From: a virus
Direction: 5' to 3' (one strand)
DNA: 37,435 bases
IMG/VR virus record: IMGVR_UViG_3300040801_002304
Coordinates: 1 to 37,435 of that record
Below are positions 593-21,154 of this stretch, in pieces. The notes below the pieces were generated by a model. That model saw nothing but the letters and a program-made list of their open reading frames with translations. It searched no databases and was not told the origin of the DNA. The number at the start of each line of letters is the position of its first letter. Positions within the stretch are counted from its first letter, which is position 1. Both the position numbers and the translations under genes were made by a program.

Positions 593-2203
593 CTACTGCA
601 CTTCCGCGCGACTCAGCTCGGCCAGAAGGCCCTGCCGCGCCACGGTGGCACCTGCGTTGGTGGCGGTAATGATGATGTCGGACGTCAGGTCCAACCCAGT
701 CTGCTGGTACCTGCCGATGGCCAGGCCAGCACCAACTGACTCGCTGACAGCCGAGAACATCGAATCGAAGGACGTCGTGCCAGTGACCACCAGCTCCGCC
801 GTAACCTGCACTTGGCCAGGGTCCGTGCCATCAATGGCAATGACCGCTGCCGTTAGGCTGTCTACGGTAAGGATGAGGCTGGCCGGGTTGCCACCTGTCA
901 CGTCCAGATTGTGCATAATGCGCACATGATCGTTGACGTGTAGCAGGTCGGCTGGAATGGTCAGCGTGTTGGTGGTGGTGTAGAACGTGCGCGGAGGTCC
1001 TGGAGCCACGACGTCGCCGTTGTCGTAGTGATCGGTGCTTGCCGAGAACGCGATGTCCCCGGTGGTGGCACCAGCACAGTCGTTGGCTCGGATCACGCAG
1101 TCCGTGCAGTCACTGGCGTCGATGCCGTACTCCGTGGCATCCCGGAAGTTGTTGCCAACCACCAGGATGTCCTCGCTGCTGAGCAGGTCCAGCCCGTCTC
1201 CGCCAGCACCACGGGCCGTGTTGCCAGAGATCGTGCCGTAGCGCGCGTAGACCTTGATGCCGTCCAGACCTGGCGACGTGATCTGGTTGCCGCTGATGGT
1301 GATCTGCTGGATGCGGCCGGACGCGCTGCCCACCTCGATGCAGGGTACGCTGTCCACCATGCCACTGCCGTCGATCAGGTTGTCGGCAATCACGATCTCG
1401 CCAGCGGTAGCTGCGTAAGCTGCAGCGCCGCCCAGGACCTGGATGGCCTCTGCATCTGATGCGTAGAACACGTTGTCGCACACAGACAGGCGGTTGATAA
1501 CAGAGCCAGATGCCCGCACCGACGTGTCGTCCGCCTGGCCGAAGTAGCAGCCGCCGATCATCACGTCGCGGCATGCCTCGATCTCTGTGTGGATGGTGTT
1601 GTTGTTGAAGTGGCATCCCTCTACAGTAATGTGCTCGGGGTAGGTAGAGCCGTCGGCCGTCAATAGCAGGGCATTGCCGTCGAAGTTCTCAAAGTGCACA
1701 GCGTGCACCTTCGTGTACTGGGCTCCGCTTAGCTCCAGCCCGTCGCACGTCTCGTTGTTGCCGTTGATGCGCACGTTCATGATGGTCAGTCGGGACAGGG
1801 AACCAGAGCTGGCGTTCTTAAGCAGGCTTCCGCTGGCTCCGCTGCTGGCCCTGATCTCGCTGGTCTGGCCACAACCAAGGATGATGGTCTTGTTGCCAGG
1901 GATGCTGACGGCTGACGCCTCGATGGTGGTATCAGGCGGGATGAAGCAAACACCGCCGCTAGCCGCCGTCAGGGCAGCGTCCAGCGTGTCGTACTCAGCC
2001 GCGTTGATGATGCCCCAGATGGACCTGCCACCAATGATCTGGTGCACGTCCAGCTCCAGGTTGCCTTCGGCTAGCAGCGGCCACGTGATGTCGGCGGAGC
2101 CAATGCCAGCAGTGAACTTGTCCTGCAAGTCTTGCACGAAGTCATTCAGGTCCTCTGGCGTGAGGATCTGCTTGTCTTCGTAAGTAGGATAATCAATGCT
2201 CAT
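593..2203 (-). CDS. Right-handed beta-helix tail spike-like protein
   Basis: 536 residues. Residues 1-75 look like an adaptor region. From about residue 75 the chain has a pectate-lyase/tailspike pattern: a D(T)-x(4)-AL segment, then many short repeats rich in G, N and hydrophobics (for example NVRINGNN, VEGCHFNNN, ISGNQITSPG, VVGNNFRDA) typical of parallel beta-helix coils. The last 130 residues are non-repetitive and may be a trimerisation or binding tip. Phage spikes of this fold often bind or cleave surface polysaccharide; no catalytic residues can be assigned by eye. The start ATG overlaps the stop of the upstream tail gene (TAATG) and has an AGGAG site. Confidence 0.75.
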   Translation of the reverse strand: MSIDYPTYEDKQILTPEDLNDFVQDLQDKFTAGIGSADITWPLLAEGNLELDVHQIIGGRSIWGIINAAEYDTLDAALTAASGGVCFIPPDTTIEASAVSIPGNKTIILGCGQTSEIRASSGASGSLLKNASSGSLSRLTIMNVRINGNNETCDGLELSGAQYTKVHAVHFENFDGNALLLTADGSTYPEHITVEGCHFNNNTIHTEIEACRDVMIGGCYFGQADDTSVRASGSVINRLSVCDNVFYASDAEAIQVLGGAAAYAATAGEIVIADNLIDGSGMVDSVPCIEVGSASGRIQQITISGNQITSPGLDGIKVYARYGTISGNTARGAGGDGLDLLSSEDILVVGNNFRDATEYGIDASDCTDCVIRANDCAGATTGDIAFSASTDHYDNGDVVAPGPPRTFYTTTNTLTIPADLLHVNDHVRIMHNLDVTGGNPASLILTVDSLTAAVIAIDGTDPGQVQVTAELVVTGTTSFDSMFSAVSESVGAGLAIGRYQQTGLDLTSDIIITATNAGATVARQGLLAELSRAEVQ

Positions 2204-4446: not shown

Positions 4447-5442
4447 CTACCTAAAGCGAATGTTCTCGATCTGGTCGAATGCGGCCCCATAGTCCACGCG
4501 GCTGCCGCCACGCCACCTACGGTGCTGCGCGATTCTGTGCTTGCCGCTAGGGCTGAACTGCATGCGGTCATGGGACACGTTGCCTGCGCCTTGCGCCTGG
4601 TTGATCGTGCGGATCATGTCCTGCAGCACCAGCTGCGTCTTCTGGGAGTCCTCGTAGTCACGGTTGGCCAGCTGGAGCATGCACTCGATGGCGATGCTCT
4701 CGTGCGACTTGGGCAGCAGAACCCGGTCCTCATCGGTCTCGATGGTGGGGTGGTTCTTCTGGTACGTGAACGACAGGATGCGCGCGTCGATGGGGTAAGG
4801 ATCGAAGTGGCACACCTGGAACGTCTCCGAGTCGTCCAGCCCGTACACCGTGAAGTAGTCCGGCTCAGCGATCAGCATGGTGTTGGCACGGTCCCGCCGC
4901 CTGGACAGCATGGCTTCCGGCCCGATGGCTTCGATCTCCGGGTTGCCGAAGAAGTTGGCCCAGTCGCCGGTGGGGCGGTCGAAGTCCTCTGGCAGCGCGT
5001 ACCGGTCCTGCACGATCTTGTACGCCAGCGTGCCGTCCGCATCCTCCCAATCGTCGCCCAGGTACGGGCGGTTCAGGGTGATGGCCGTGGTGCTGAGCAC
5101 CTTCTCGATGCGGTAGATGGTATCGTGGCTGCCCAGCTGGATGGCTCGGTTCTTGTACGAGTCATTGAACACTAGGTCAGTTTCGCTGGCACCCAGCGTG
5201 ACGTCGGCAGAGCCATTGGAAAGCTCAAAATACGCATCGCCCGTCAACGCTGGGACCAGCTGCAGCGTGCCGTCAGCACGCAGAAATGCCCAATCGTCCA
5301 GGGTTTGCATGCTGGCCAGCACACGGTTCAGCAGCCGGACCAGCTTGCGGGTCTCGGGGCGTTGCGTGCCCTCCAGCGTATCGGTCTGCCGCCACCCAAG
5401 GCGGTCTTCGACCTCGTTGATTAGGGCTAGTCCGGTAATCAT
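4447..5442 (-). CDS. Head-to-tail adaptor / tail tubular-like protein
   Basis: 331 residues from ATG 5442. That start is preferred because GGAGG lies 6-7 bp upstream and the upstream gene stops only 2 bp before; a longer frame to 5466 would sit inside that gene. The N-terminal half is helical (ALINEVEDRLGWRQ, LVRLLNRVLASMQ), followed by beta strands and a YxLPEDFDRP segment. This mix, along with an LPxDFxR-type motif, resembles adaptor proteins of the T7 gp11 and related families. Its place just before the large tail protein supports the call. No catalytic motif seen. Confidence 0.5.
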   Translation of the reverse strand: MITGLALINEVEDRLGWRQTDTLEGTQRPETRKLVRLLNRVLASMQTLDDWAFLRADGTLQLVPALTGDAYFELSNGSADVTLGASETDLVFNDSYKNRAIQLGSHDTIYRIEKVLSTTAITLNRPYLGDDWEDADGTLAYKIVQDRYALPEDFDRPTGDWANFFGNPEIEAIGPEAMLSRRRDRANTMLIAEPDYFTVYGLDDSETFQVCHFDPYPIDARILSFTYQKNHPTIETDEDRVLLPKSHESIAIECMLQLANRDYEDSQKTQLVLQDMIRTINQAQGAGNVSHDRMQFSPSGKHRIAQHRRWRGGSRVDYGAAFDQIENIRFR

Positions 5443-5443
5443 A

Positions 5444-5938
5444 TTACACCTCCGGGACGCAGACAAGTTCCCAGTCGTGAGTGCCAGTGGTGGTAATAGT
5501 ACCGGCCGACGTTACTACGACCTTCATGCCGTGGATAGGCGTGAGATTGTCGTATTGCTGTGTAGTGGCACCGCCGCCAGAGATACCACCAAGCACGTGG
5601 AATACGGCTCCAGCAGATCCTGTAGCGGTGGCAGCCAGAGTAATCACAGACGCGGCGGCAGTAGAGCCGGGTTGCGACAGGAAATAGGCAGGTCCACTGA
5701 TGGTCTGCGAATGGTCTACGTACGGAAAAATCTTGAGTGTAAGATTCTCGTCGAAGTTGTTGGCCCAAAACACGCCGTTGACTTGCCACGCGTTGTATGG
5801 CAAATTGACGTCTGCACTGACACCGGCCGTCAAGGCCGCAGTGTGCGCCACTCCTGTGCCGCTGTCCGTGCCCAGCTTGTGCAGTTCAATCTGGTCCTGG
5901 CCCTGGGCGCGGTTGCGGTGAGGATACGGATAAGACAT
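5444..5938 (-). CDS. Hypothetical virion-like protein, 164 residues
   Basis: Not recognised. The protein is rich in A, T, G and V with beta-strand character, with no membrane segment and no catalytic motif. It starts at ATG 5938 after a clear AGGAG site and ends 2 bp before the start of the adaptor gene, so it is cotranslated with the tail genes. A structural role (tail or head surface) fits its composition and place, but nothing specific can be said. Confidence 0.55.
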   Translation of the reverse strand: MSYPYPHRNRAQGQDQIELHKLGTDSGTGVAHTAALTAGVSADVNLPYNAWQVNGVFWANNFDENLTLKIFPYVDHSQTISGPAYFLSQPGSTAAASVITLAATATGSAGAVFHVLGGISGGGATTQQYDNLTPIHGMKVVVTSAGTITTTGTHDWELVCVPEV

Positions 5939-5947
5939 TTCTCGCTC

Positions 5948-7918
5948 CTAGTCCGAGACCGCCAGGATCACCTGGGCCTCGTTGGTTGTGCTCTCGTTCT
6001 GGATGTGCAGGCTGGTCACGGTGGTCAGCGCCAATGCGACCACACCACTTACCGGCCAGTAGTTGCTGTCGCCGTTCACCGACACGTTGATGGCATTGTC
6101 GGTTTCGACGATCAGGTACGCGGCTTCCTCCACGCCACCAAGCGTCACTTGCATGCTGGTGTTGGTCGCCAGGTTGATCACTCGGTGCATGGACTCATTC
6201 CACAACACGCGCTCGGTGTAGTTGGCTAGGTCGTGGTGCTTGCGCCGATTCTTCTTGGTCTTGAGGCGGAACTCCGTGGTGACCTCCAGCGTGGGCCGGA
6301 AGAACGGAGCAACATCCAGGTACTCCACTGGTACCGGGCTAGGGGCACCGGGCGGCACCACGGGGAACGGAAGCACAATGAAGCTGGCGTACGGCCTGTC
6401 CAGCGAATCCACGATGCGCGTGGTGCAGGTGGTGCCGTCGCACACGTTGTAGGTGAACCCGTCGTCGCCCTCGTAAGTGGCGTCCGGCGTGTAGTCGAAC
6501 GAACCGTCGGTAGTGTTCAGCGTCAGCGTGCCGTGGGTCACGTCGTCAACCAGGACGTACGTCATGGGGTCGCCGTCTGGGTCCTCGGCCGTGGTGACCA
6601 GGCCGCTGACGGCTGGCACGGACAGCAGGGAGCCTGCCGTAACTTCGCCTAGATCAATTGCGCCGGGCCATGGGTTGTTGACGACTGGCGGATCATTTAT
6701 TGAATCGTCGATGGCCCCTACCACACCGCCGTCCAGAGCAGACGTGCGCCCAATAATAGGCCGCAAGTCGTAAGGCAACGTGTGGTCGTAATCGCTTGGA
6801 GTCCAGGTCCAACTACCAGTGGAGACAAACACATCCGTTAGTCCAACACCTGTGTGCGCGCTAGATGTTGGATCCAGAATAGTGGCATTGTTAACGCCGC
6901 TAGTTCTGTACGTGTAATCGAATTGGTAGGACGTGTACCCAATATCGCTTGTCCAGTTCGCCTGCCTGGCGGTCAACTCGGGACCAATAGCGAATAGATC
7001 ATACCCAGATGTTTGCGCTGCCGTTTGTGACGCAGCTACGCCACCAGTCAAAATAGAGGACCCAAGTCCATTTACAGCCGGGGAAACTCCTGCGCCGCAT
7101 TCAGCGTAGAACAGGTTGCTATGCACACGCAAAAGATCAGTATTGTCACCACTAGCAGAAATGAGTGGCTCAGAGGCCTCAGATCCGTATCTTTTGCTTA
7201 TGAAGGTATTGTATGCCACCCTGTGGTATGTTCCACCGGCAGAAGTGCCGAACTGCAGCAGGGAATTTAACGCGCCAGAATCTGCGTCCCCAATAAACAC
7301 GCAATGGTGGATGTCCCAATGATGCCCGGCCTCCAGAAGTGGAGACTCTACCGTTACGTGCTGAAACACGCATCGCGCAACTTCAACCGTCTTATCGGTG
7401 GCTGACGGGAAATCAATGGCAACAAAAACCGCAGGGTTAGTTATATTAACAGACTCGCCTGTAGCATCATCATATAAAAATTCGCAGTCTAATATCCTCC
7501 AATCACCAAGCTGGAAGTAACAGTAGAATGGTTGAGGCGTTCCTGTTGCTGCGGCTATCGCACTATAATCAAACCTCAGACCTTGAAACGTAATGAACTC
7601 GCAGTATTCCATGCGGATCCAATACGTAAGTCCAACGGCTGCCGCTACAGTAGTAACGGCAGGATTTCCGCTGGAATCTGTGCCTCTAATCGTGAGCCCA
7701 GGATCTGTGTCAAAATCAGTTCCAGAGAAAACATTATCAATACGCCCGTTATTGGCGTCGGTGAGCGTACCACAAGGATGGTCGCCGTCATTCACCATGT
7801 TGATAACGTCGCCCTTGGCCGCCGCGTTAACGGCGGCCCACACGTCGGCCTTGGCCAGCGCATACGACGACCCGTCGTTGGCGTTGTTGCCAGCTGTGCT
7901 GACCCAGATCGTTGCCAT
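5948..7918 (-). CDS. Multidomain beta-helix surface protein with Ig/cadherin-like domain and shared C-terminal module
   Basis: 656 residues from ATG 7918; the upstream gene stop is 1 bp away and AGGAAG precedes it. The longer frame to 7933 would need a TTG inside that gene. Residues 1-390 read as a parallel beta-helix (IWVSTAGNNANDG opening, then short repeats such as RMEYCEFITFQG, WDIHHCVFIGD). Residues about 395-500 form a VCBS/cadherin-like repeat (PPVVNN, EDPDGDPMTY, GSFDYTPD, DDGFTYNV). Residues about 565-656 match the 120-residue protein encoded at 16246-16608. It is likely a decoration, spike or fibre carrying host- or glycan-binding domains. The first third (7000-7700) is visibly less GC-rich than the rest, which may mark a separate origin. 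Confidence 0.7.
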   Translation of the reverse strand: MATIWVSTAGNNANDGSSYALAKADVWAAVNAAAKGDVINMVNDGDHPCGTLTDANNGRIDNVFSGTDFDTDPGLTIRGTDSSGNPAVTTVAAAVGLTYWIRMEYCEFITFQGLRFDYSAIAAATGTPQPFYCYFQLGDWRILDCEFLYDDATGESVNITNPAVFVAIDFPSATDKTVEVARCVFQHVTVESPLLEAGHHWDIHHCVFIGDADSGALNSLLQFGTSAGGTYHRVAYNTFISKRYGSEASEPLISASGDNTDLLRVHSNLFYAECGAGVSPAVNGLGSSILTGGVAASQTAAQTSGYDLFAIGPELTARQANWTSDIGYTSYQFDYTYRTSGVNNATILDPTSSAHTGVGLTDVFVSTGSWTWTPSDYDHTLPYDLRPIIGRTSALDGGVVGAIDDSINDPPVVNNPWPGAIDLGEVTAGSLLSVPAVSGLVTTAEDPDGDPMTYVLVDDVTHGTLTLNTTDGSFDYTPDATYEGDDGFTYNVCDGTTCTTRIVDSLDRPYASFIVLPFPVVPPGAPSPVPVEYLDVAPFFRPTLEVTTEFRLKTKKNRRKHHDLANYTERVLWNESMHRVINLATNTSMQVTLGGVEEAAYLIVETDNAINVSVNGDSNYWPVSGVVALALTTVTSLHIQNESTTNEAQVILAVSD

Positions 7919-7919
7919 G

Positions 7920-9323
7920 TTACTTCCTCTCAACCACGCAGATCAGGTGGTACTTGTCGGCCTGGTCGAAGCTGATGTCCCACTGGTCGGTAGAGAACTC
8001 AGCGTCCACCAGCATGTCCACAATGTAATCCCGGTTGAACAGGGCCGTGTGCTCCGGCACCTCATTAGGCCCCATGCAGTTGTCTGGCGTGGTGATGATT
8101 AGCTTGTTGACTGAACTCTGGCGAATTGAGCCCAGCACCTGAACACCGATGGGCCGGTCCAAGTGCTCCAGAGTCTCGGACATCACGACGACGTCCAGCT
8201 CGGCCAGCTTCTTGGTGACGCCCAGATCGGCCAGGTCCAGCACGCTGGCGTTCAGGAACCGCGCCTTGCACATGTCCACGGCCGTAGGTGAGATGTCGAA
8301 GCCAGTCCACATCACGCGTCGTTGCGCGGTCAGCTTGCTGCCGAGGATACCAACGCCGCAGCCAAGCTCGGTTACCTGGCTGTATTCGGGCACCTCGTCC
8401 GCAATCTTCTGGAACATCTCCGGGTACTTGCGCCAAGTGTCCGCGCCCTCGCGGCCGTACACCTGGTCCCAGTAGTCGGGCGTGTTGATGTTGCGCACCT
8501 TCTTGAAGCCCGGTGCCGTCTCGGGCACGGTGAACGTCTGGCCAGTCTTGATGTCATAGTGGCCGCACAGCACCGCGCCGTGCACATACACGGGATGGCC
8601 GTGCAGATTCAGCATGCGGCAGAAGCGCACGTCATGGCCCCACATCACGCCGTTCTCGCCCTTCTCGCTGGGCAGGTCCTTCTCGTCGGCCCAGATGGGC
8701 ACATCCGGATTGGCCTCCATCCAGGACTTGATGGAGCTGACGCGAGCCAGCAAGCACCCAGCACCAGCACCGAAGATCAGCTCGGGCGTAGCTCCCTTGC
8801 CCATCTGGAAGTCCCAGGAAGCGCCCTCTCCGTGCTCCTTGTAGATCAGCGGCTCGTTGGGCGTCTCGCGCGTGGTGTACACGCCGCTGACTGCTCCAGC
8901 GTGCGGATTCTGCTCCATGAAGTTGTACAGCGTGTACAGCCCCAGCGGAGGGATAAGCGTGTCGTCGTCCACGTAGAAGATGTACTCCGCGCCCATGCGG
9001 ATGGCTTCCATCGTCATCACCTGGCGGGCGTGGCTGGACAGCATCCCGGTCTTCACCAGGTAGGACATGCTGACGTTCAGCGGCGGCACCCAATTCATGT
9101 GGCTCAGCATGAACTGCACGGGGATCAGGCTCTGGGCTCGGAAGCCACGCTGGTTCGCGTACTTGTTTCCGTGGGGATCTTCGAACACATCCACCACGGG
9201 CTTGCCACCAATCGGCATGGCCACGATGATCTTGGGGCGTTGGGCCAGCTTGATAGCCGTGCGGCGCGCAACTGCGATATCCGGATGGCCGTCCATGACG
9301 GCATCATTCTTCACGTGTTCCAT
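7920..9323 (-). CDS. Glycosyltransferase (GT-A) fused to class I SAM methyltransferase
   Basis: 467 residues. Residues 30-270 look like a family 2-type glycosyltransferase: KIIVAMPIGG beta strand, YVDDDT (D119-D121, the DXD metal/nucleotide-sugar site), FGAGAGCLL and a WGHDVRFC segment near residue 228 as in the acceptor-side ED-like motif. Residues 280-467 are a Rossmann methyltransferase: ELGCGVG (319-325), FDIS acidic loop (342-345), SETLEHLDRP, and ITTPDN. Both active-site signatures look intact. It lies between the terminator and the 656-residue spike-like gene, starts at ATG 9323 with GGGAGAG, and has a 1-bp gap to its neighbour. A role in modifying a virion protein or host glycan is inferred; DNA-base modification is less likely given the virion neighbours, but cannot be excluded. 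Confidence 0.8.
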   Translation of the reverse strand: MEHVKNDAVMDGHPDIAVARRTAIKLAQRPKIIVAMPIGGKPVVDVFEDPHGNKYANQRGFRAQSLIPVQFMLSHMNWVPPLNVSMSYLVKTGMLSSHARQVMTMEAIRMGAEYIFYVDDDTLIPPLGLYTLYNFMEQNPHAGAVSGVYTTRETPNEPLIYKEHGEGASWDFQMGKGATPELIFGAGAGCLLARVSSIKSWMEANPDVPIWADEKDLPSEKGENGVMWGHDVRFCRMLNLHGHPVYVHGAVLCGHYDIKTGQTFTVPETAPGFKKVRNINTPDYWDQVYGREGADTWRKYPEMFQKIADEVPEYSQVTELGCGVGILGSKLTAQRRVMWTGFDISPTAVDMCKARFLNASVLDLADLGVTKKLAELDVVVMSETLEHLDRPIGVQVLGSIRQSSVNKLIITTPDNCMGPNEVPEHTALFNRDYIVDMLVDAEFSTDQWDISFDQADKYHLICVVERK

Positions 9324-9359: not shown

Positions 9360-9392
9360 AAAAAAGGGGCGGGCAGTTGAACCACCCGCCCC
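9360..9392 (-). terminator. Intrinsic terminator between head and tail parts of the late unit
   Basis: Read on the minus strand, an 8-bp perfect GC stem (GGGGCGGG at 9366-9373 pairing with CCCGCCCC at 9385-9392) with an 11-nt loop is followed by six T. It lies just after the 139-residue gene stop (9401). A second small dyad, TGCTCA/TGAGCA (9343-9360), follows it directly before the glycosyltransferase gene. The strong hairpin should reduce, perhaps not abolish, transcription into the tail genes. Confidence 0.85.
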
Positions 9393-9400
9393 GTTTGGTG

Positions 9401-9820
9401 CTAGCTGCGATAGGCCAACGTAGTCGGCGGGCTAGCCACGTGACCGGCAATGGTCACGCTGATGTTGTCAGCAGCATCGCCAGCATCGGCCACGACGCGA
9501 ACGTCGATGACACCTCCGGCGGCGATAGTGCCTTCCTTGATGGTCAGAGCACCCAGGTTGGTGGTGACGTTCACAGCGGCGACGATCTGAGTACCAGCAG
9601 CAGTGCTGCCGATAGTCAGAGCCGGATCGCTGGTGACCGAACCAGACACGACGCTGATGTCGGTAATTTCGAAGCCCATGCCCGCCGGGAACTTGACCTG
9701 GCGGTGCACGGTTTCGCTGTTTGCGACATCGTCGAATCCAACACTGATAACCTGGATCGCGCCGGAAACCGGCCCGTCCTGGTCGGTGTCGCGGTTATAG
9801 AACCTAGTCACTTCGCTCAT
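9401..9820 (-). CDS. Hypothetical virion-like protein, 139 residues
   Basis: Not recognised. An all-beta-looking protein, rich in V, T, A and G, with no membrane segment. ATG 9820 has a very strong AGGAGG site, and the gene is the last before an intrinsic terminator, in the capsid cluster. Highly translated small genes just after the major capsid gene are often decoration or minor head proteins; that is inference from position. A LAGLIDADG nuclease gene separates it from the capsid gene. Confidence 0.55.
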   Translation of the reverse strand: MSEVTRFYNRDTDQDGPVSGAIQVISVGFDDVANSETVHRQVKFPAGMGFEITDISVVSGSVTSDPALTIGSTAAGTQIVAAVNVTTNLGALTIKEGTIAAGGVIDVRVVADAGDAADNISVTIAGHVASPPTTLAYRS

Positions 9821-9823
9821 GGA

Positions 9824-10237
9824 TTATACCTCCTGGTGTGGGCGCGAAGCATGGAGTGCAATTAGGGCTTGACGAAAGGGCTCACGTACTGGGAACAGCC
9901 CCTCTTTGGTCCGCTGTCCTTTAGATCGGATAGTTTTGGCGTACTCGATGCCGATGTCTGCCTGGTCCTGCTTGACTACTAGGTATGGGCGCAATGCCTC
10001 AAGCACCTCGCCAGCCCTCTTGCCAGTAACAGCCCAGGAATGCCGCTGCTGCTTGTCAACCCACAGTGAACCACCGAAGATTTCGTGCAGCTTAGGACAC
10101 ATCTTATCATCTACACAGCACACTTTGACAACCAATTGGTGGACGCCGGGCTTCTTGCGGTAGCTGATTGTAATACAGCCCTCTCCGTCAATAATCCCAG
10201 CGGCCCACGCTAAGTTAGCAACGTCAGGATAGGCCAC
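9824..10237 (-). CDS. LAGLIDADG homing endonuclease (free-standing)
   Basis: 137 residues. The motif AGIIDGEGCITI (residues 13-24) is a clear LAGLIDADG helix and metal-binding acid. Downstream KxKQxxHSWAVTGKRA-like segments fit the beta-sheet DNA-binding face. Only one motif is present, so it should act as a homodimer, as known for single-motif members. The start is GTG at 10237, supported by AAGGAG 8 bp upstream and by its spacing to the capsid gene. It is inserted between the major capsid gene and the 139-residue gene, with 3 bp to the latter, so it is read with the late operon. Its selfish spread to the capsid locus is inferred. Confidence 0.8.
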   Translation of the reverse strand: MAYPDVANLAWAAGIIDGEGCITISYRKKPGVHQLVVKVCCVDDKMCPKLHEIFGGSLWVDKQQRHSWAVTGKRAGEVLEALRPYLVVKQDQADIGIEYAKTIRSKGQRTKEGLFPVREPFRQALIALHASRPHQEV

Positions 10238-10252: not shown

Positions 10253-11167
10253 TTACGCCCCTTGGCCTCCGACCACATTTCGCCAGTCAGATGCACCACG
10301 AGACATCCTATAAGTCATTTTACTTTTCATATTTCCAGTGTCGAAGTCCATGGTGTGGTCGGTGACAGGCTCCTGCCGCCAGTACACCAGGCAGCGATGC
10401 TGGCTGGGCTCGGAGCAGATGAACCAGTCATCGTCACCGGTCAGGTACTTGGACATGACAACGCCCATGCTGAGCTGGTTCAGGGCGTTGATGGCGTTGG
10501 TCGCCGTGTCGCTCCGAAGCTGGCTCTTGAGAATCTCGAACGCGATCCAGCGCAGCTCGACAGGAATCACGAGCATGGTCGGGCTTGCCTCGATGGGCAG
10601 GTTCCGATCATCCACCATGTTGTCGAACAGGTTGATCGCGGTCTCGATGTTGGCCTGGGACAGGTCGCCGCTGACGATGTTGCTGTAGGTCCCGCCGCCC
10701 ACGAGGGGATGCGAGGCGTTGAACAGCGACACGCCATCGGGCGTGGTCTCGGTGGCGAAGCCCAGGTTGAACAGGTTCCAGATGTAGGTCTCGATGGAGA
10801 CACGGGCCGCACGAGCAAGCGACGGAGCAGCGTTGGTGATCGCGCCGTCGATGTCGTCGTCCATGGCCTCCATGGTGATCTGGTAGCCCTTGGCGAACGT
10901 CAGGTGGGTAAACCGCTTGTCGTACGCCTGGAGAATGGTGTCATAGTCCACCGCAGAACCCTCGGACTTCTGGGAGAAGGTCCCGAAGCCGGTCAGGCCC
11001 GTGGTCTCCTCGTACGCGCGACCGGAGTCACGGACGTTGAAGACCTGCGGATAGGTCAGGGAGGGAGCGTCGAAGTTCTCGTAGAGAATCTCGTCGATAT
11101 ACGCCAGCCGCGAAGCGAACAGGTCGGTATACCGCCCGCGCTGCATGATGTTACCAGCACTAGCCAT
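10253..11167 (-). CDS. Major capsid protein (HK97 fold inferred)
   Basis: 304 residues from ATG 11167, supported by AAAGGTAGG 8 bp upstream; the GTG at 11176 is too close to that site. The order of segments (FDAPSLTYPQVF, YDKRFTHLTFAKGYQITMEA, FNASHPLVGGGTYSN, NLFDNMVDDRN, LVIPVELRW near residue 200) matches Mu gpT-like/HK97-fold capsid proteins, in which a 'H-P-L' loop and a long helix follow an N-terminal arm. It sits downstream of portal, scaffold-like and putative decoration genes. No protease gene is seen, so a separate scaffold is likely. The call rests on pattern plus position. Confidence 0.8.
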   Translation of the reverse strand: MASAGNIMQRGRYTDLFASRLAYIDEILYENFDAPSLTYPQVFNVRDSGRAYEETTGLTGFGTFSQKSEGSAVDYDTILQAYDKRFTHLTFAKGYQITMEAMDDDIDGAITNAAPSLARAARVSIETYIWNLFNLGFATETTPDGVSLFNASHPLVGGGTYSNIVSGDLSQANIETAINLFDNMVDDRNLPIEASPTMLVIPVELRWIAFEILKSQLRSDTATNAINALNQLSMGVVMSKYLTGDDDWFICSEPSQHRCLVYWRQEPVTDHTMDFDTGNMKSKMTYRMSRGASDWRNVVGGQGA

Positions 11168-11185
11168 GTTGTACACCTACCTTTC

Positions 11186-13782: not shown

Positions 13783-13880
13783 TACTTACCCTTCTTGTTG
13801 CCCTTACGTGGCTTTTTGTAAGGCATGTTCTTGGGTTTCTCCTTGACCTTCTTGTCCTTGCGGGGCGGGACTTTGGGCAT
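13782..13880 (-). CDS. Very small Lys/Arg/Pro-rich protein, 32 residues
   Basis: ATG 13880 overlaps the stop of the portal gene (TAATG) and GGAGG lies inside the portal C-terminal codons 10 bp upstream. The protein opens MPKVPPRKDKKVKEK and ends NKKGK, with 14 Lys among 32 residues. Coupling at both ends and the good ribosome site argue that it is real. Function unknown. Confidence 0.55.
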   Translation of the reverse strand: MPKVPPRKDKKVKEKPKNMPYKKPRKGNKKGK

Positions 13881-16237
13881 TACTGTACGCCTCCTTCAAG
13901 TGCATCCATGTCTGTGCCGCCGCCCTGGGACATGCCGCTAGGCACGTTGTTTCCCTGGCCGGGAGCCACTGGGCTCTGTGCCATGCGCTGCTGCTGCATC
14001 AAGAACTCCTGGTGCTGCTTCATGTGCATGGCGAACAGGATCACGCGATCCTCGGACATCACTGCGAATGCCTCAGACCTCTGGAACCTCTCGATGGCTG
14101 CCAGGTGTCCGGCATGATCGTCAGTCGGCAAGGCGTCCAGCTGCACGCCGTGCAACATGGCCTGGTTCTCGCTGTCCTGCGACATGGGCGGATGCTGATA
14201 GCCTCCCTGGCCCGGCATGGCAGGCACCAGCCGGTCAATGTCCACGCCCTCCGAGTAGTGACGCAGGAAGTCCTTCAAGGCTTCGCGACGTACCACTGGA
14301 TCCTGGGCGTAGTCGGGATGGGTCATCACCGTGTTGTAGCGCACCTGGGCCAGCGTACGCAGCACCTCTCGGTTGGTGTTCACCGTGTTGCCAGTGAACT
14401 GGAAGGTGTGCCGTCCGCGAATGTCCTGCGGCGTGATGCGCGTGCGCTTCAGCTCTCCAGCAGAACCGGTGACCAGCACGTACTTCTCGTCTGGCATGTA
14501 GCTCTGGTACAGGCCCATCAGCTGGTGCATCAGCTCTTCCCAGCCGGTGCGCTGCCAGCGCGTGATGATGTTGTCCAGCTGGATGTTGCCCTCGCTGAGC
14601 AAGGCCAGTGTGCCGCGAGCAGTACGCGGCGCGTTTCGCACCTGGGGAGAGCCAGCGTTCATGGGGCTCATGGTGATGCGATCAGCGAACAGCAGCAGTG
14701 AGTCCATAGCCGATAGGTTGGCCAGAGGCTCCTGCTGGAACTTGGGGAAGCTGACACCGTTGATGTCACCAATGGGAATACCGTCGCCCGGCGAGATACC
14801 AGACAAGATGCCTGGGTCTGCCATGACGGCGGCTGGGATGTAGAAGAAGAATGGGTTGTTAATCAGCTCCTGGTTGTTGTTCACGAAGTTGATGATCGTG
14901 TTGACTTCCAGGTTGATCGGCACCAGCACTTCGCCCATGCCCGTGGCGTACCAACGATCAGAGATGGTCTTGTACTTGATGGTAGCGAACGGGCGACGGT
15001 TGTGCGGGAAAATCTCGCTCAGGTACTCGCACCCAACCACAGCGCGCAAGGCGTGGCAGATGTAGTAGATGACCTCGATAGGCTCGCCGTCGTCATCCAC
15101 GTCGTCAAGAACATACACCTCGTAGAACAGCATCTTGCGGTCGTCGGTAACAAGGTCCTCTTCGCCGTCGCGGCTTGCGCTCTGGCGGACTTGCTCCTTC
15201 TCACCTTCACCAATGACGCGGTCCTTCTGGCGCTTCAGCTCCTCGTTGGTTTCCAGCTCCTCCTGCGTCTCAGGGCTGCGGGACATGATCCGGTCCAGCT
15301 CTTCCTCAGACATGTTGAACGAGCCGTCGTCCACCTTGCGCTGCACCTCGTCACGGGTCAACCAGAATTGCTGAGCAACCCAGTCGGCCTCGTCTAGGTT
15401 CTGCGTGCGGAAGGGCACGATCAGATCCTCGTGCTCGATAACCTCTACGCGAGGACAGTCGTGCTTGAGGACCTCGCGGTACACGTGGATGTCGACTTCG
15501 TCAACGTACTCGCTGGGCTTGAACACAACCCTCGCACGATGTCGCCGCCGCTCCTCCACGAACTCCACGTAGAACTTGTGCCCAAGCAGCTCTGGCACCA
15601 AGCTGTCGTTCTCGTCGTACTCGTCTCGTCCCAGGTCCTCAACGGCGATCAGGCCGTGCCGCACCGTGGGCTTGCCGAACACTTCCTCCAGCACCTCGTC
15701 CGGCGTCTTGACGCGGTCCTCCATCTCGGCCACGCCCTGGAGATTGATCTGGCCCTTGGCCCACACAGCCTTCAGCTTGTGCACCTCGACCGTCTTCTCC
15801 CACTTGCGTTCCCAGTAGATTTTCAGCGTGCTCATGCCGTCGCGCAGGGCGTTACGGAACCAGCTCTCGGAGGTCTCGTAGAAGTTGGGGTAGATGTTCT
15901 CTTCCAGGCCCCAGTTCAGCACGCGCTCAGCTGCGTCCGTTTCCTCCGGGAGAAACTCCTCGGCAACGCGCCGCACATGCACGATAGGCTCCGTGCCCCA
16001 GAAGGCGTTGACCACCTTGGGCACCGAGTTCTCGATCTTCTCGTACACCACTGGCAGGTGGATGTCGGATGCGCCCGGCCACGGCGTGCGCGGCAGAGGA
16101 TCCTTGTCCATCCAGTAGAGGGAGCGGATCAGTTGCAGCTTGCCGTCAAGATCAGCGCGGTCCTCGATGGCCTGCTCGATCTCGCCAACTAGCCACGCGC
16201 CCCTCTCTTTGCGGAAACTGTCTTCCAAGTATGGCAT
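13880..16237 (-). CDS. Portal protein
   Basis: 785 residues from ATG 16237, chosen for an AGGAG site 7 bp upstream; a longer frame runs into the upstream 120-residue gene. It forms the dodecameric DNA gate at one capsid vertex. The N-terminal half has WPGASDIHLPVV and ERKWEKTVEVHK; residues 430-620 have the large-portal pattern of long helices (YATGMGEVLVPINLEVN, NNQELINNPFFFYI, APRTARGTLALLSEGNIQLD) and GDGIPIGD turns; the C-terminus is Q/M-rich and G/P-rich. Length is at the upper end, similar to podovirus portals. It lies between terminase and scaffold genes as expected. Confidence 0.85.
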   Translation of the reverse strand: MPYLEDSFRKERGAWLVGEIEQAIEDRADLDGKLQLIRSLYWMDKDPLPRTPWPGASDIHLPVVYEKIENSVPKVVNAFWGTEPIVHVRRVAEEFLPEETDAAERVLNWGLEENIYPNFYETSESWFRNALRDGMSTLKIYWERKWEKTVEVHKLKAVWAKGQINLQGVAEMEDRVKTPDEVLEEVFGKPTVRHGLIAVEDLGRDEYDENDSLVPELLGHKFYVEFVEERRRHRARVVFKPSEYVDEVDIHVYREVLKHDCPRVEVIEHEDLIVPFRTQNLDEADWVAQQFWLTRDEVQRKVDDGSFNMSEEELDRIMSRSPETQEELETNEELKRQKDRVIGEGEKEQVRQSASRDGEEDLVTDDRKMLFYEVYVLDDVDDDGEPIEVIYYICHALRAVVGCEYLSEIFPHNRRPFATIKYKTISDRWYATGMGEVLVPINLEVNTIINFVNNNQELINNPFFFYIPAAVMADPGILSGISPGDGIPIGDINGVSFPKFQQEPLANLSAMDSLLLFADRITMSPMNAGSPQVRNAPRTARGTLALLSEGNIQLDNIITRWQRTGWEELMHQLMGLYQSYMPDEKYVLVTGSAGELKRTRITPQDIRGRHTFQFTGNTVNTNREVLRTLAQVRYNTVMTHPDYAQDPVVRREALKDFLRHYSEGVDIDRLVPAMPGQGGYQHPPMSQDSENQAMLHGVQLDALPTDDHAGHLAAIERFQRSEAFAVMSEDRVILFAMHMKQHQEFLMQQQRMAQSPVAPGQGNNVPSGMSQGGGTDMDALEGGVQ

Positions 16238-16245
16238 CGTGGCTC

Positions 16246-16608
16246 CTAGTCGGTAACGACCAATTCTACTGTCGCCTGGTTGATGGTGCTCTCGTTCTGC
16301 AGGTACAGGTGCGTGATGCTGCCGGTAAGCAGCAAGGCCCCATTCTCCGCGACCGGCCACAGGCTGCTGGCGCTATTGACTGCCACGCTAATGGTGCGGT
16401 CAGTCTGGAGGAACAGAGTCCCTCCGGTCTCCACGCCAGCAAGGTCAACCTCAGACGGGCTGGCCATGTTGGTGGCAAGAACCACACGCTGGTGGGTGCT
16501 TTCGCTGTACGTGATATCCGGATCGTAGAACACCTGGTCGTACAGGTCGGCACCGTTACGAATCAATCGTACGCGGGCGCGCAGGGTTCTGGATAGACTG
16601 TCTGCCAT
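16246..16608 (-). CDS. Virion-like protein sharing a C-terminal module with the 656-residue spike
   Basis: 120 residues. The C-terminal 90 residues align with the last 90 of the protein at 5948-7918: LATNM..P.EVDLAGVE versus LATNTSMQVTLGGVE, then SVAVNS.S.LWPV versus SVNGDSNYWPV, then LYLQNESTINQATVELVV versus LHIQNESTTNEAQVILAV. ATG 16608 overlaps the large terminase stop (TAATG). Beta-rich, no membrane segment. The likely role is a small virion component that docks in the same way as the spike C-terminus, or a shared trimerisation/attachment domain; inferred. Confidence 0.65.
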   Translation of the reverse strand: MADSLSRTLRARVRLIRNGADLYDQVFYDPDITYSESTHQRVVLATNMASPSEVDLAGVETGGTLFLQTDRTISVAVNSASSLWPVAENGALLLTGSITHLYLQNESTINQATVELVVTD

Positions 16609-18200
16609 TAGTGTCCTCCGTATCCCGTGCGCAAGCCGGGCATGTGGATCGTGAACTTGTTTTCCATCTCACGAAGCTCTCCGTACTGGTCGCGCTTCTC
16701 CTGCTGGCGCATCAGGGACTTCAGTCGCCAGTAGTCCCATCGTCCCTGGAAGTAGTAGCGCAGACAGTCGATCAGGTCGTCGTAGACCTTGCGGATGGCG
16801 TCCTTCTCTCCCATGATGTCGCGCTGCTTGGTGGTCTGCCAATCGTCGAACGCGAAGTTCATGAAGTTGGACTTCATCTCTGGGCAGCAGTTGAACACCA
16901 CTAGCTGAGGTTCGTCCCATTCGTACTTGCCGCGTTTGAGTGCTTCGTGTATTGCGTCGTAACCGGCAGCCGCGTTCTTCTTCTGGGCCAGCAGACAGGT
17001 GATGCCCTGCTGGTGGAATGCCCATCGGACGCTCTCGCCGCTGGTGCGGTCCTGCTCCTGCGCGCTGTCGTCGATGATGCGCAGCACCACCGGCTCGGCC
17101 TCGTCTCCAGGAACCTTGGATCCGCTCCAGCCCTCTACCCTCTTGATATAATCCGATACGTCCTTGATGGTACGTAGGCTGGGGTCTTCCTTGGTGCGGT
17201 ACACGAAAATCTGGTTGTCCGGCGACACGGCCAGCCACAGCAGCGTAATCGGCTTGCGGTTGTGCGGGTCGATGAACAGCACCCTCGGCCAGCTGGGCGG
17301 GATGTCGAATGGGTCGATCCAGTAGGGCGGACGCGGCTCCCATTCCTTGTAGACGCGCCCAGCGAGCTGGATGAAGTTACCGTGCAGACGTGCTTCAAGC
17401 TCGTCCTCACGCAGGTCGGCCAGGAACTCCTCGATGGCTTCGCGCTTGAGGTAGCCGCCGTTCTCCGTGCAATTGTCCCAGATGCTGAATTTGAACAGCG
17501 ATACTCCGCTGCCTGGGATCTCGGCACGCTCGACAATCTTCTCGTTGATCCAGAATGCGCCCAGTGGAGTCATGCTAAACCACAAGTGCCCGTTGAAGTC
17601 TACCAAGCCGCGCTTGAGGCCGGTATACTTGCGGTAACCACACGGCTCGTCAATCCACGCCCAATGGCCGTGAGGCCCTTCAAATGCTAGGTCGTCCTGG
17701 TCATCTGACATGAAGTATGTCTTAGACCCATTGGCCCAGTCAATCTGCACTGGGATCTGTTGCGCGCTGGTGTGCACCTTCTTGATGAGGTGCATAGGTG
17801 CCCATTCCTGGAACTTGGGCCAGATGGTCTGATGAATGGCCTGGCGATAGTTCTGGGCCAACACGCGCCCGATGTTCGGAACCGGTATAGGATCGCCACC
17901 AGGTAGCCGCACAATGCGTAGCGGGTGGTCCTCCGGCAACCACGGACGGAATCCCAGAGAATGGGCGATGGCCTCCACAGCACCAGTCGCCGTCTTGCCG
18001 CTACGGTTGGAACCCAGCACCAACCTCACCGCGTCTTCTTGCCGTTCGAAGAACCTTCCTTGGTCTCCCTTGGGCAACGGACGATAGAAGACGATTTTGT
18101 TGGCGTTGTAGTGGGCCTCTATGGCCTGCAGCTCCACCAGAAGGTCTTGCAGCTCGCTAAGAGTCAGGTCCTCCGTCTTGATCGTCGGGTCGTGCTGCAT
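16608..18200 (-). CDS. terL: Terminase large subunit (packaging ATPase and nuclease)
   Basis: 530 residues. Walker A GSNRSGKT at 63-70, Walker B WAWIDEP at 180-186 with the catalytic E, and a C-terminal RNase H-like nuclease with acidic residues in VLFIDPH, LRIIDDS and YDDLIDCLRY. It powers DNA packaging and cuts concatemers through the portal. The start ATG 18200 has AGGAGCAG upstream and lies inside the end of the HNH gene (44-bp overlap). The unusual feature is separation from the small subunit gene by nrdJ and two HNH genes. Confidence 0.92.
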   Translation of the reverse strand: MQHDPTIKTEDLTLSELQDLLVELQAIEAHYNANKIVFYRPLPKGDQGRFFERQEDAVRLVLGSNRSGKTATGAVEAIAHSLGFRPWLPEDHPLRIVRLPGGDPIPVPNIGRVLAQNYRQAIHQTIWPKFQEWAPMHLIKKVHTSAQQIPVQIDWANGSKTYFMSDDQDDLAFEGPHGHWAWIDEPCGYRKYTGLKRGLVDFNGHLWFSMTPLGAFWINEKIVERAEIPGSGVSLFKFSIWDNCTENGGYLKREAIEEFLADLREDELEARLHGNFIQLAGRVYKEWEPRPPYWIDPFDIPPSWPRVLFIDPHNRKPITLLWLAVSPDNQIFVYRTKEDPSLRTIKDVSDYIKRVEGWSGSKVPGDEAEPVVLRIIDDSAQEQDRTSGESVRWAFHQQGITCLLAQKKNAAAGYDAIHEALKRGKYEWDEPQLVVFNCCPEMKSNFMNFAFDDWQTTKQRDIMGEKDAIRKVYDDLIDCLRYYFQGRWDYWRLKSLMRQQEKRDQYGELREMENKFTIHMPGLRTGYGGH

Positions 18201-18561
18201 TTAGCTGCTCCTGGAAATGGTGGTCCCTGTGACAATTGGCGCACAGGACATCACACTTTAGTAGCTCATCTACTACACGATCAACACCACAGCTGTGCAT
18301 CATGTCTGCAATATTGCGGTACTGACGATCTTTGGTTGCAGGATCGCGGTGGTGCAGGTCTAAGCACCAGTGCCTTCGTTCCCCGCAGTATTTGCATCCA
18401 GCTTCGGTCTTATACATGCACACCAGGTCGTTGTTCTTCTGGAATGACCTCTCTTTGTGCGCACGGTGTTTGGAGTACACCTTTTCCTTGTGTCTGGCCA
18501 CGTACGCCTTTTGGCGCTTTCTACCGGCCTCTCGTCGTTTTACCGGATCAGCATATGGCAC
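18157..18561 (-). CDS. HNH homing endonuclease, copy A
   Basis: 134 residues if started at GTG 18561, which overlaps the nrdJ stop (TAGTG). An in-frame ATG at 18606 inside nrdJ would add 15 residues, so the start is uncertain. Basic N-terminus (KRREAGRKRQKAY), then a zinc-bound HNH core: CKYCGERRHWCLDLHH, then LLKCDVLCANCHRDHH. It overlaps terL by 44 bp. It is paralogous to the HNH at 20684-21154 (same CxxCG...LxHH...LCANCH order) and both genes share the 17-bp string TGACAATTGGCGCACAG in the same codons. A free-standing selfish nuclease is the usual meaning. Confidence 0.8.
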   Translation of the reverse strand: MPYADPVKRREAGRKRQKAYVARHKEKVYSKHRAHKERSFQKNNDLVCMYKTEAGCKYCGERRHWCLDLHHRDPATKDRQYRNIADMMHSCGVDRVVDELLKCDVLCANCHRDHHFQEQLNAARPDDQDGGPDS

Positions 18562-20843
18562 TATCCACACCCACCATTTGCGCCGCACGTCGGGCAACTG
18601 TAGCACGTTCCCGTGCGCTGCATGATGCTACCGCATTCGTAGCAGATGTTCACTTCCGACTGCGCCGGTTGCTGTTGAGGCTCCATAGTGGTAAATTCTT
18701 TACCTGTTTCGTACCTCAACAGCAACCACCTAGCGATATAGTCGACGATGCTGTGGGCCATCGGAATTTCTGGATTGCCCGTCAAGCCCGCAGGCTCAAA
18801 CCTGGAGTACGCGTACTTCTCCATCAGGGCTTCCAGTGGCACGCCATGCTGCAGAGCGATAGACACTCCGATTGCCCAACTGTCGAGCAAACCCGAAATC
18901 GTCGACCCTTCCTTGGCAACGTGTACAAATAGTTCGCCGGGCGAACCATCATCGTACAGGCCTACAGTGAAGTATCCCGTATGACCAGCCACGGAGAACC
19001 TGTGAGTGATCGCGGAGCGTACGTCGGGGAGAGGTTGTCGTGCGCTGCGATGCTGCTGCAAGTTCTCCGTGGTGGCTCCAGTAGACAGCGGCTGGGACAG
19101 CTTGCAACCATCCCGGTAAATCGCCACCGCCTTGAGGTCCAATCCCCAAGCCTCGATGAACACGTCCTCGACGTCCTGCACCGTGGCAGAGCTGGGCATG
19201 TTGATAGTCTTGCTGATGGCTCCGCTCAGGAACGGCTGGCAGGCAGCCATCATGCGCAGGTGGTCGCTGGGCGACACCTCGTCGGCGGTCCGGATGTGCG
19301 GATCGTCGAAGTTCAGCTCGATGCTGCCTCCACCGGCCAGCTGCTTCACCATCTTCCTGGAGAACAGAGGCTCGATGCCCGTGGTGATGCAGTCCATGAT
19401 GAAGCTGATCGTGCCAGTAGGCGCGAGCACCGTGAGCTGGGCGTTGCGGAATCCGTACTTCTCCGCGCCGTCCAGTGCCTGGTGCGCCTGACGCCGAGCA
19501 CTCGCCCAGATGGGGTTGTACACGTCCATGCTTTCAGGAGGCAGGTGCGCCATGTGCATGCGATGCACCCTCAGCTGGTGCTCGGAGAAGCCCGCGTGCG
19601 CGCCACGTTCAATGGCCAAGTCCACGCTGGCGTTGGCCGCCGAGAAGTGCATCAGGGCCGTGATACTGGCCGCCATGGCGCGTGCCTCTGCCGAATCGTA
19701 CTTGAGGCCCATTTTCGCCAGCAGGTGCCCCAGGTTAGTGAAACCCAGACCCAGCGGACGATACAGCTCGGAGTTCTTGGCGATTTCCGGAGTAGGGTAG
19801 CCAGCGAGAGACACGATGTTGTCCATCGCCTCGATCAGGTAGTACACGTCAGTTACGAACAGGGCAGTGTTGAAGCCACCTTCGTCCGTGTAGTAGGCCA
19901 CCAGATTCAACGAAGCCAGGTTGCAGGCCGTCTCATCCAGGAACATGTATTCGCTGCACGGGTTGCTGGAGTTGATCGCACCGATGTGTGGGCAGGTGTG
20001 CCAGCGATTGATCTCGTCGTGGAATTGCATGCCAGGATCGCCGCATTCCCACGCCGCTTCCGCCACCATGCTCAGCAGGTCGCTGGCGAGGAGCGAATCG
20101 AAGGTCTCGCCGGTGGTACGGGCAGTGAGGTCCCAGGGCTGGCGATAGTTTGCCGCATCCATGAACTTGTCTGTAACCCGCACGGACAGATTGGCGTTCT
20201 GAAAGAACACAGAAGCGTATGCCTCTCCATCGAACGACGTATCGTACCCGGCCTTGGTGATGAGATCCTTTGCCTTCCGCTCCTCGCGAGCCTTGCACCA
20301 GATGAACTCCCGGATATCCGGATGGTCCGCGTCGAGGATCTGCATCTTGGCAGCCCGTCGCGTTTTCCCACCAGACTTCACGGTGCCCGCCACGGCGTCG
20401 TACACGCGCATGAAGGAGACCGGGCCGCTTGCCTTACCACCGCCAGCCAGTCCCTCCATGGATCCGCGAAGCGGGGAGAGGTTCGTCCCGGTCCCCGACC
20501 CGTACTTGAACAGCTGGCCCTCTTTCACGGCCAGGTTCAGAATGCTGTCCATGTCATCGGTGACGGACTGGATGAAGCACGCAGAGCACTGCGGTTGTTC
20601 TTCGATGCCGACATTAAAGAATACCGGAGAGTTGAATGCGAATCGCTGCTCCACGATTCCATCGTACAGGTGATCGGCAAGTTCTAGGTGTCCATTTGCC
20701 ACGCCTGTTGCAACACGGCGTATTGCGGCAAATATACTGGATCCATCGACGTGATGCAAGTATTTGTCCGCGAAGATGCGGACGGCGTTGTACGACCAGC
20801 CTTCTGGCGCTTCAATTTCTCGATCAAGCTCTTTGATGTACAA
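18561..20843 (-). CDS. nrdJ: Class II (adenosylcobalamin-dependent) ribonucleotide reductase
   Basis: 760 residues, converting ribonucleotides to deoxyribonucleotides for phage DNA synthesis. Visible catalytic elements: C89 in CSACFIQS, finger loop N294-P-C296-S-E298 (thiyl cysteine and its N/E partners), C307 in DETACNLASLNL, and APTGTISF. The C-terminal tail has two CxxC pairs and ends GGCG, like the reducing tail of class II enzymes; no nrdB-type radical subunit is nearby. The start is TTG 20843, supported by AGGGGAG 5-6 bp upstream. It overlaps the C-terminal codons of an HNH gene by 160 bp in another frame and couples to a second HNH gene at its 3' end. It depends on cobalamin supplied by the host. 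Confidence 0.92.
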   Translation of the reverse strand: MYIKELDREIEAPEGWSYNAVRIFADKYLHHVDGSSIFAAIRRVATGVANGHLELADHLYDGIVEQRFAFNSPVFFNVGIEEQPQCSACFIQSVTDDMDSILNLAVKEGQLFKYGSGTGTNLSPLRGSMEGLAGGGKASGPVSFMRVYDAVAGTVKSGGKTRRAAKMQILDADHPDIREFIWCKAREERKAKDLITKAGYDTSFDGEAYASVFFQNANLSVRVTDKFMDAANYRQPWDLTARTTGETFDSLLASDLLSMVAEAAWECGDPGMQFHDEINRWHTCPHIGAINSSNPCSEYMFLDETACNLASLNLVAYYTDEGGFNTALFVTDVYYLIEAMDNIVSLAGYPTPEIAKNSELYRPLGLGFTNLGHLLAKMGLKYDSAEARAMAASITALMHFSAANASVDLAIERGAHAGFSEHQLRVHRMHMAHLPPESMDVYNPIWASARRQAHQALDGAEKYGFRNAQLTVLAPTGTISFIMDCITTGIEPLFSRKMVKQLAGGGSIELNFDDPHIRTADEVSPSDHLRMMAACQPFLSGAISKTINMPSSATVQDVEDVFIEAWGLDLKAVAIYRDGCKLSQPLSTGATTENLQQHRSARQPLPDVRSAITHRFSVAGHTGYFTVGLYDDGSPGELFVHVAKEGSTISGLLDSWAIGVSIALQHGVPLEALMEKYAYSRFEPAGLTGNPEIPMAHSIVDYIARWLLLRYETGKEFTTMEPQQQPAQSEVNICYECGSIMQRTGTCYSCPTCGANGGCG

Positions 20844-21154
20844 GTCTCTCCCCTTGTCCTCAGTATGTGGTGCACGTCGTTATGACAATTGGCGCACAGC
20901 ACGACGCACTTCTTCAGTTCCCGCAGCATCTTTCCGTGGCCCACACTTGGGTTAGGATTGCACTCCTTGGTGCTCGGATCCCAGTGGTGGGGCTCCAGCC
21001 GCCAATGCTTGTCCTCTCCACAAACGGCACAGCCACGAACCGTCTTCCATGTCTGGTAGATTTCTACGTCTCGTTGTCGTCGTTCCTTGGCCTCAGCCAA
21101 ATATCGCTCCCGACGATCCAGGTAGTATTGCCTGTGGTATGCTTTGCTTCCCAC
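20684..21154 (-). CDS. HNH homing endonuclease, copy B, overlapping the nrdJ start
   Basis: 156 residues, start GTG 21154 with GGGGAAG. Helical, basic N-terminus (YYLDRRERYLAEAKERRQRD), then the core CAVCGEDKHWRLEPHH, then LKKCVVLCANCHNDVHH. The last 50 or so residues read out of frame over the first 160 bp of nrdJ; they are polar and unlike the nuclease, so they may be a tail created by insertion rather than a functional domain. Same family as the copy at the other end of nrdJ. Confidence 0.78.
   Translation of the reverse strand: MGSKAYHRQYYLDRRERYLAEAKERRQRDVEIYQTWKTVRGCAVCGEDKHWRLEPHHWDPSTKECNPNPSVGHGKMLRELKKCVVLCANCHNDVHHILRTRGETCTSKSLIEKLKRQKAGRTTPSASSRTNTCITSMDPVYLPQYAVLQQAWQMDT

Follow-up and report, generated by a model that had tools for sequence, protein, structure and literature searches.

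The window (the whole stretch of DNA analyzed, a linear IMG/VR virus record of 37,435 bases) encodes, within its structural block, a single protein joining a GT-A glycosyltransferase (GT) to a class I SAM-dependent methyltransferase (MT). Neither fusions of GT with MT nor glycosylation of viral capsids are new in themselves. The novelty is that such a fusion is conserved throughout a clade within the structural operon of phages, that its methyl half can be removed, and that less related viruses have counterparts of it as gene pairs. We consider it reasonably probable that the protein attaches a sugar to a virion protein and methylates this sugar as a cap, as a phage analogue of the chlorovirus protein A064R. 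To our knowledge, virion glycosylation has been proven in few phages. For methyl-capped virion glycans, chloroviruses are the best-known case.

Position of the gene among virion genes

The reading frame occupies exactly positions 7920-9323, as an earlier note on this DNA had proposed, and lies on the minus strand, which that note left unstated. It begins with ATG, is preceded by a ribosome-binding-like stretch (GGGAGAG) and comprises 467 codons. The minus-strand structural block that contains it reads TerL, 120 aa, portal, 300 aa, 215 aa, 177 aa, capsid, a LAGLIDADG-like ORF, 139 aa (p139), GT-MT, 661 aa, 164 aa, SU10-like adaptor, 745 aa and a beta-helix tail-spike-like protein. The plus-strand early block encodes a primase, DNA polymerase A, a gp32-like SSB, a nuclease-like protein, a nucleotide kinase and a DnaB helicase. 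The features of the structural block are:

593-2203, minus strand: beta-helix tail-spike-like protein (Pfam beta-helix match)
4447-5466, minus strand: SU10-like adaptor (score slightly below cut-off)
5948-7933, minus strand: 661-aa virion-appendage-like protein with an Ig/cadherin-like domain (Big_9, 1.7e-13), candidate acceptor
7920-9323, minus strand: GT-MT fusion protein, 467 aa (P0001 in the ORF list; full fusion also in 11 other viral contigs)
9366-9392, minus strand: 12-bp GC-rich hairpin followed by T6, terminator/attenuator-like, between p139 and GT-MT (z -3.9; conserved in the clade)
9401-9820, minus strand: p139, S/T-rich protein between capsid and GT-MT (syntenic in the clade), candidate acceptor
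10253-11176, minus strand: major capsid protein (Phage_capsid_4, 9.7e-17; phrog_371), candidate acceptor
13880-16360, minus strand: portal (SU10_portal, 3.6e-26)
16608-18200, minus strand: TerL

Where the contig of a clade member is long enough to reveal the gene order, it reads capsid, p139-like, GT(-MT), appendage, a 164-aa protein (in some only), adaptor, 745 aa and beta-helix protein. The appendage-like protein (661 aa in the window, where its gene follows directly) is encoded behind GT in every clade member, and in L012 (related contigs are designated by L numbers) a different 146-aa ORF takes the place of p139, which is perhaps a head decoration protein. The earlier note had spoken of a "tail module". 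The gene does lie among virion genes and this placement is conserved across the clade, but the term is a loose one for a position directly behind the capsid gene. Similarly, of the beta-helix proteins said to stand beside it, one with a Pfam beta-helix match is found at 593-2203, whereas the adjacent 661-aa protein is cadherin/Ig-like and has no Pfam beta-helix match.

A GC-rich hairpin is present in the gap between p139 and GT in 14 of the 14 members examined (the window, L002, L004-L013, L024 and L028). Its stems vary by compensatory pairs, with up to four pair types per position as counted from the folded stems. The T run that follows, which gives the structure the appearance of an intrinsic terminator, occurs in the window and in L010 and is seen in some members only. 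The hairpin may lower GT-MT expression relative to that of the capsid, which would fit a catalyst.

Several small ORFs in the window resemble endonucleases. The LAGLIDADG-like ORF between capsid and p139 (9824-10237, minus strand; 20.2 bits, cut-off 23.1) looks like a free-standing homing endonuclease, since it is missing from L010 while the DNA is collinear on either side. Two further minus-strand ORFs (18157-18606 and 20684-21154), located on either side of a ribonucleotide reductase gene, show HNH endonuclease-like CxxC/HH patterns and neither has a Pfam match.

The glycosyltransferase and methyltransferase halves

The full-chain model is of only moderate confidence (pTM 0.52) and the MT half dominated the fold search made with it; the GT half was modelled separately. 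Folded alone with 17 homologues, it gives a pLDDT of 78.7 and a pTM of 0.81. By sequence, residues 112-197 match Glycos_transf_2 (PF00535) with 20.7 bits, below the curated cut-off of 23.3 and thus outside the family as defined. This marginal match to a glycosyltransferase is settled by the fold model, which matches solved GT-A structures. The best solved-structure match among the Foldseek hits compared is STIV A197 (2c0n; VIA-align Z 16.9, 174 residues aligned, rmsd 2.9 A, 14% identity). Further matches include the protein glycosyltransferases LH3 (VIA Z 13.4-15.2) and COLGALT1, together with TarP, RmlT and SpsA (VIA Z 12.5-13.8). Both the Foldseek and VIA lists are filled by GT-A enzymes (Z 12.4-16.9), which identifies the fold.

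Four motifs, DxD, G-loop, xED and C-His, make up the GT-A core (PMC7185993). All four are carried by the GT half. Their conservation was read from a 17-row alignment that takes in the distant L015 and reaches down to 25% identity:

8493-9323, minus strand: GT-A glycosyltransferase half, residues ~1-277 (fold model and structure matches)
8961-8969, minus strand: DXD motif DDD119-121 (metal / nucleotide-sugar); D120 and D121 invariant in the 17 rows, D119 present everywhere except in L015
8757-8771, minus strand: G-loop GAGAG185-189; G187 invariant in the 17 rows
8631-8639, minus strand: xED-type motif GHD229-231; D231 invariant in the 17 rows and aligned in L035 and L038
8559-8561, minus strand: H255, at the C-His metal ligand position; invariant in the 17 rows
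8494, no strand: end of the 80-82% DNA identity with L010, coinciding with the GT/MT domain boundary (blastn of the window against L010)
7923-8492, minus strand: class I SAM-dependent methyltransferase half, residues ~278-467 (Pfam over cut-off; structure matches)
8349-8369, minus strand: SAM motif I, ELGCGVG 319-325; invariant in the 6 aligned fusions

D231 is, from the alignment, a candidate catalytic base. Inverting enzymes typically carry Asp at the xED position, which suggests, but does not prove, an inverting mechanism.

In the MT half, Pfam methyltransferase models exceed their cut-offs at residues 304-401 (Methyltransf_12, 4.7e-8; Methyltransf_25, 1.6e-7; MetW, 3.3e-7), and in structure comparison class I methyltransferases align with residues 275-467 of the full-chain model (VIA Z 14.8-16.8). 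The combination of a Rossmann-like fold with SAM motif I places it in class I. Both ELGCG and the acidic residue D343 are retained in every fusion. The families matched (UbiG, MetW, Hen1-like) are broad, leaving room for a non-sugar substrate. That both domains are intact is well supported. The earlier note had described a DXD glycosyltransferase and a class I MT (ELGCGVG), apparently intact, in one chain, and this description holds: the motifs are present and conserved in the fusion relatives. The fold prediction of both halves that it proposed as a check returned a GT-A fold for the GT half alone and a class I MT fold in the full-chain model, with the core motifs in place.

Relatives and loss of the methyltransferase half

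The full fusion is found in 11 other viral contigs (L002-L009, L011, L024 and L028, with L003 and L006 being near-copies) at 48-73% identity. Both halves are under purifying selection, with dN/dS of 0.09-0.19 for GT and 0.12-0.41 for MT, rough values because several dS are near or above 1. The GT-MT frame is therefore no chance reading frame. In most pairs, MT is the faster-evolving half. A tblastn search of 50,697 phage records gave no match and none was confirmed in bacterial or archaeal genomes; we thus found no cultured representative. The capsid-related phages MW202601 and BK063670 have no GT or MT annotated beside the capsid gene, and a Pfam scan of four nearby proteins of unknown function gave no match to a GT or MT.

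The GT half is present throughout the clade, with or without MT. It stands without MT in four contigs (L010, L012, L013 and L014). These are not truncated sequences: the GT frame ends in a stop codon and the appendage gene begins directly after it. In L012 and L013, the ORFs that separate appendage from adaptor show, on inspection by eye, no SAM motif that would indicate a separate MT nearby. The strongly supported GT tree, rooted at its midpoint, requires two changes of state. Since the sister clade L011/L024/L028 has fusions under this root, an ancestral fusion from which MT was lost twice is the simplest reading.

The MT half is lacking in the contig most closely related to the window, L010, whose GT is 86% identical. 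From terminase and portal across capsid and p139 through GT, the DNA is collinear at 80-82% identity, and this homology ends within the final codon of the GT half. Past this breakpoint the L010 frame continues briefly to a stop codon, and the appendage gene that follows is a different one. Identity is 75-95% throughout before the boundary and falls to 32% in the appendage protein. The coincidence could mean that GT-MT acts only on the adjoining variable appendage and that MT is exchanged together with it, the effect being on adsorption and not on protection of the head. However, the appendage is variable clade-wide (28-46% identity) with or without MT, and the link comes down to this single breakpoint, so that we consider this explanation unlikely. 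L010 and the window nevertheless form a natural pair differing in the methyl half, useful for studying the role of a cap in adsorption, stability and recognition.

The last ~110 residues of the 661-aa appendage are homologous to the 120-aa protein encoded between TerL and portal (16246-16608, minus strand), with 28-41% identity across relatives. The domain common to both is perhaps a virion-attachment domain.

Proposed modification of the virion and counterparts in less related viruses

A profile of the clade GT detects glycosyltransferases in three less related viruses, L015 (7e-16), L038 (2e-8) and L035 (4e-6), for a nominal database of 100,000. The next gene after GT is a separate methyltransferase in all three. 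In L038, the order is a 349-aa protein, 150 aa, GT, MT (4-bp overlap) and SU10 adaptor; the first of these has no Pfam match and is called capsid by position alone. In L015 (7971-10167), GT and MT are followed by a second, different methyltransferase (RMNT_CmcI, Rhamnosyl O-methyltransferase/CmcI, E 4e-48). L035 has GT, MT, a weak sulfotransferase-like gene and the SU10 adaptor. The pairing thus occurs both fused and as neighboring genes, a usual sign that GT and MT serve one pathway. These pairs also bear on the status of the MT half, which might be a decayed or hitch-hiking passenger beside a GT that works alone, as its two losses and its faster evolution would allow. Its motifs are however intact in all fusions, its dN/dS is that of a constrained sequence and the less related viruses pair GT with other methyltransferases. 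A passenger role is therefore very unlikely.

We infer the following scheme. Expressed late, the GT-A half would draw on a host-made activated sugar, a source proposed because the phage has no recognizable sugar-nucleotide genes. The acceptor of this sugar would be a virion protein or a sugar that such a protein already carries, and transfer would probably proceed by inversion with D231 as base. The fused MT half would then O-methylate the transferred sugar, forming a cap. The likely acceptors would be abundant outer proteins encoded on either side, namely the capsid protein, p139 and the 661-aa appendage. The cap may be an optional module, the clade retaining the sugar step while the methyl step was dropped twice, and the modification would presumably bring some benefit to the phage. 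The synteny with virion genes is only suggestive of virion decoration. Such decoration, which the earlier note had raised as a possibility, is the best explanation, but the Thr/Ser-rich beta-helix target which that note gave as an example is not favored over others. S+T content is 16.0% in the capsid and 19.4% in p139, similar to the 18.2% of the 661-aa neighbor (7.9-8.6% in terminase and portal), and singles out no acceptor among the three.

The closest functional parallel is A064R of PBCV-1, which has two rhamnosyltransferase domains and an MT domain, the latter methylating O-2 of the terminal rhamnose added by the second domain (PMC9614988). A064R methylates the glycan of the capsid protein, and a natural variant with truncated MT exists (PMC9614988). 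The two proteins share GT and SAM MT in one viral chain with both motifs intact, a GT-A-type first domain with DXD, and the same working, a sugar being added and then O-methylated, which for the window protein is a prediction. A064R differs in belonging to a eukaryotic algal virus and in its proven action on capsid-protein N-glycans. Having one GT domain and not two, the window protein is not classed as an A064R-like member. STIV A197, the viral GT-A enzyme that the GT half resembles best among those compared, is essential for its virus, and its presumed target is the glycosylated capsid protein, although its substrates are unproven (PMC10551542). It comes from an archaeal virus, however, and is a GT domain alone, without MT. 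In mycobacteriophage Che8, capsid proteins carry covalent glycans and glycosyltransferases are phage-encoded (as cited in PMC11256854). Unlike in the window, the GT genes of the relative described in that source lie near the genome 3' end, and the part of it drawn on here describes no fusion. Finally, the uncultured Caudovirales proteins A0A6J5M7M7 and A0A6J5LLV3 (BFVD; 788 and 1443 aa) match over the model length, with 13-14% identity and a poor superposition (rmsd 15-16 A). As they are annotated as methyltransferase FkbM or GTA-type, chains combining GT and MT are probably not unique to the clade.

Alternatively, GT-MT could modify a host surface glycan (LPS, capsule, S-layer) late in infection, the methylated sugar blocking re-adsorption of progeny or competing phages. 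Glycosyltransferase genes that pelagimyophages carry near tail fibers have been interpreted as modifying the O-chain of the host (PMC7029224), and TarP, RmlT and SpsA, among the structure matches, are surface-polymer enzymes. However, GT-MT appears soluble, with no membrane segment predicted (maximum 19-aa hydropathy 1.23), and no flippase-like or polyprenyl-sugar partner was recognized among the neighboring proteins scanned. GT adjoins virion genes in divergent lineages rather than lying in an accessory region, and expression is presumably late, when altering the cell surface would help less. We regard this alternative as rather doubtful. Since phage glycosyltransferases often act on DNA, a glucosylated or hypermodified base protecting against restriction may also be considered, and the distant L038 GT does show a weak, sub-threshold match to TET-associated glycosyltransferases (17.3 bits, cut-off 27.5). 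No TET/JBP or dCMP-hydroxymethylase is found among the window proteins scanned, though, and the gene is placed with virion genes and not with nucleotide metabolism, which makes DNA modification extremely improbable.

Beyond the virion glycosylation and capping favored here for the clade, methyl-capped virion glycans might represent a widespread, unrecognized phage trait. Several phage lineages would have independently joined the same GT type with different MTs, fused in one clade and as coupled genes in others, among virion genes, and the cap would come and go as a surface trait that can be switched. We advance this broader view tentatively, as possible rather than probable.

The sulfotransferase-like gene of L035 (2388-2984), located beside the GT-MT gene pair, is a weak match (13.5 bits, cut-off 22). 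If real, it would suggest glycans sulfated as well as methylated.
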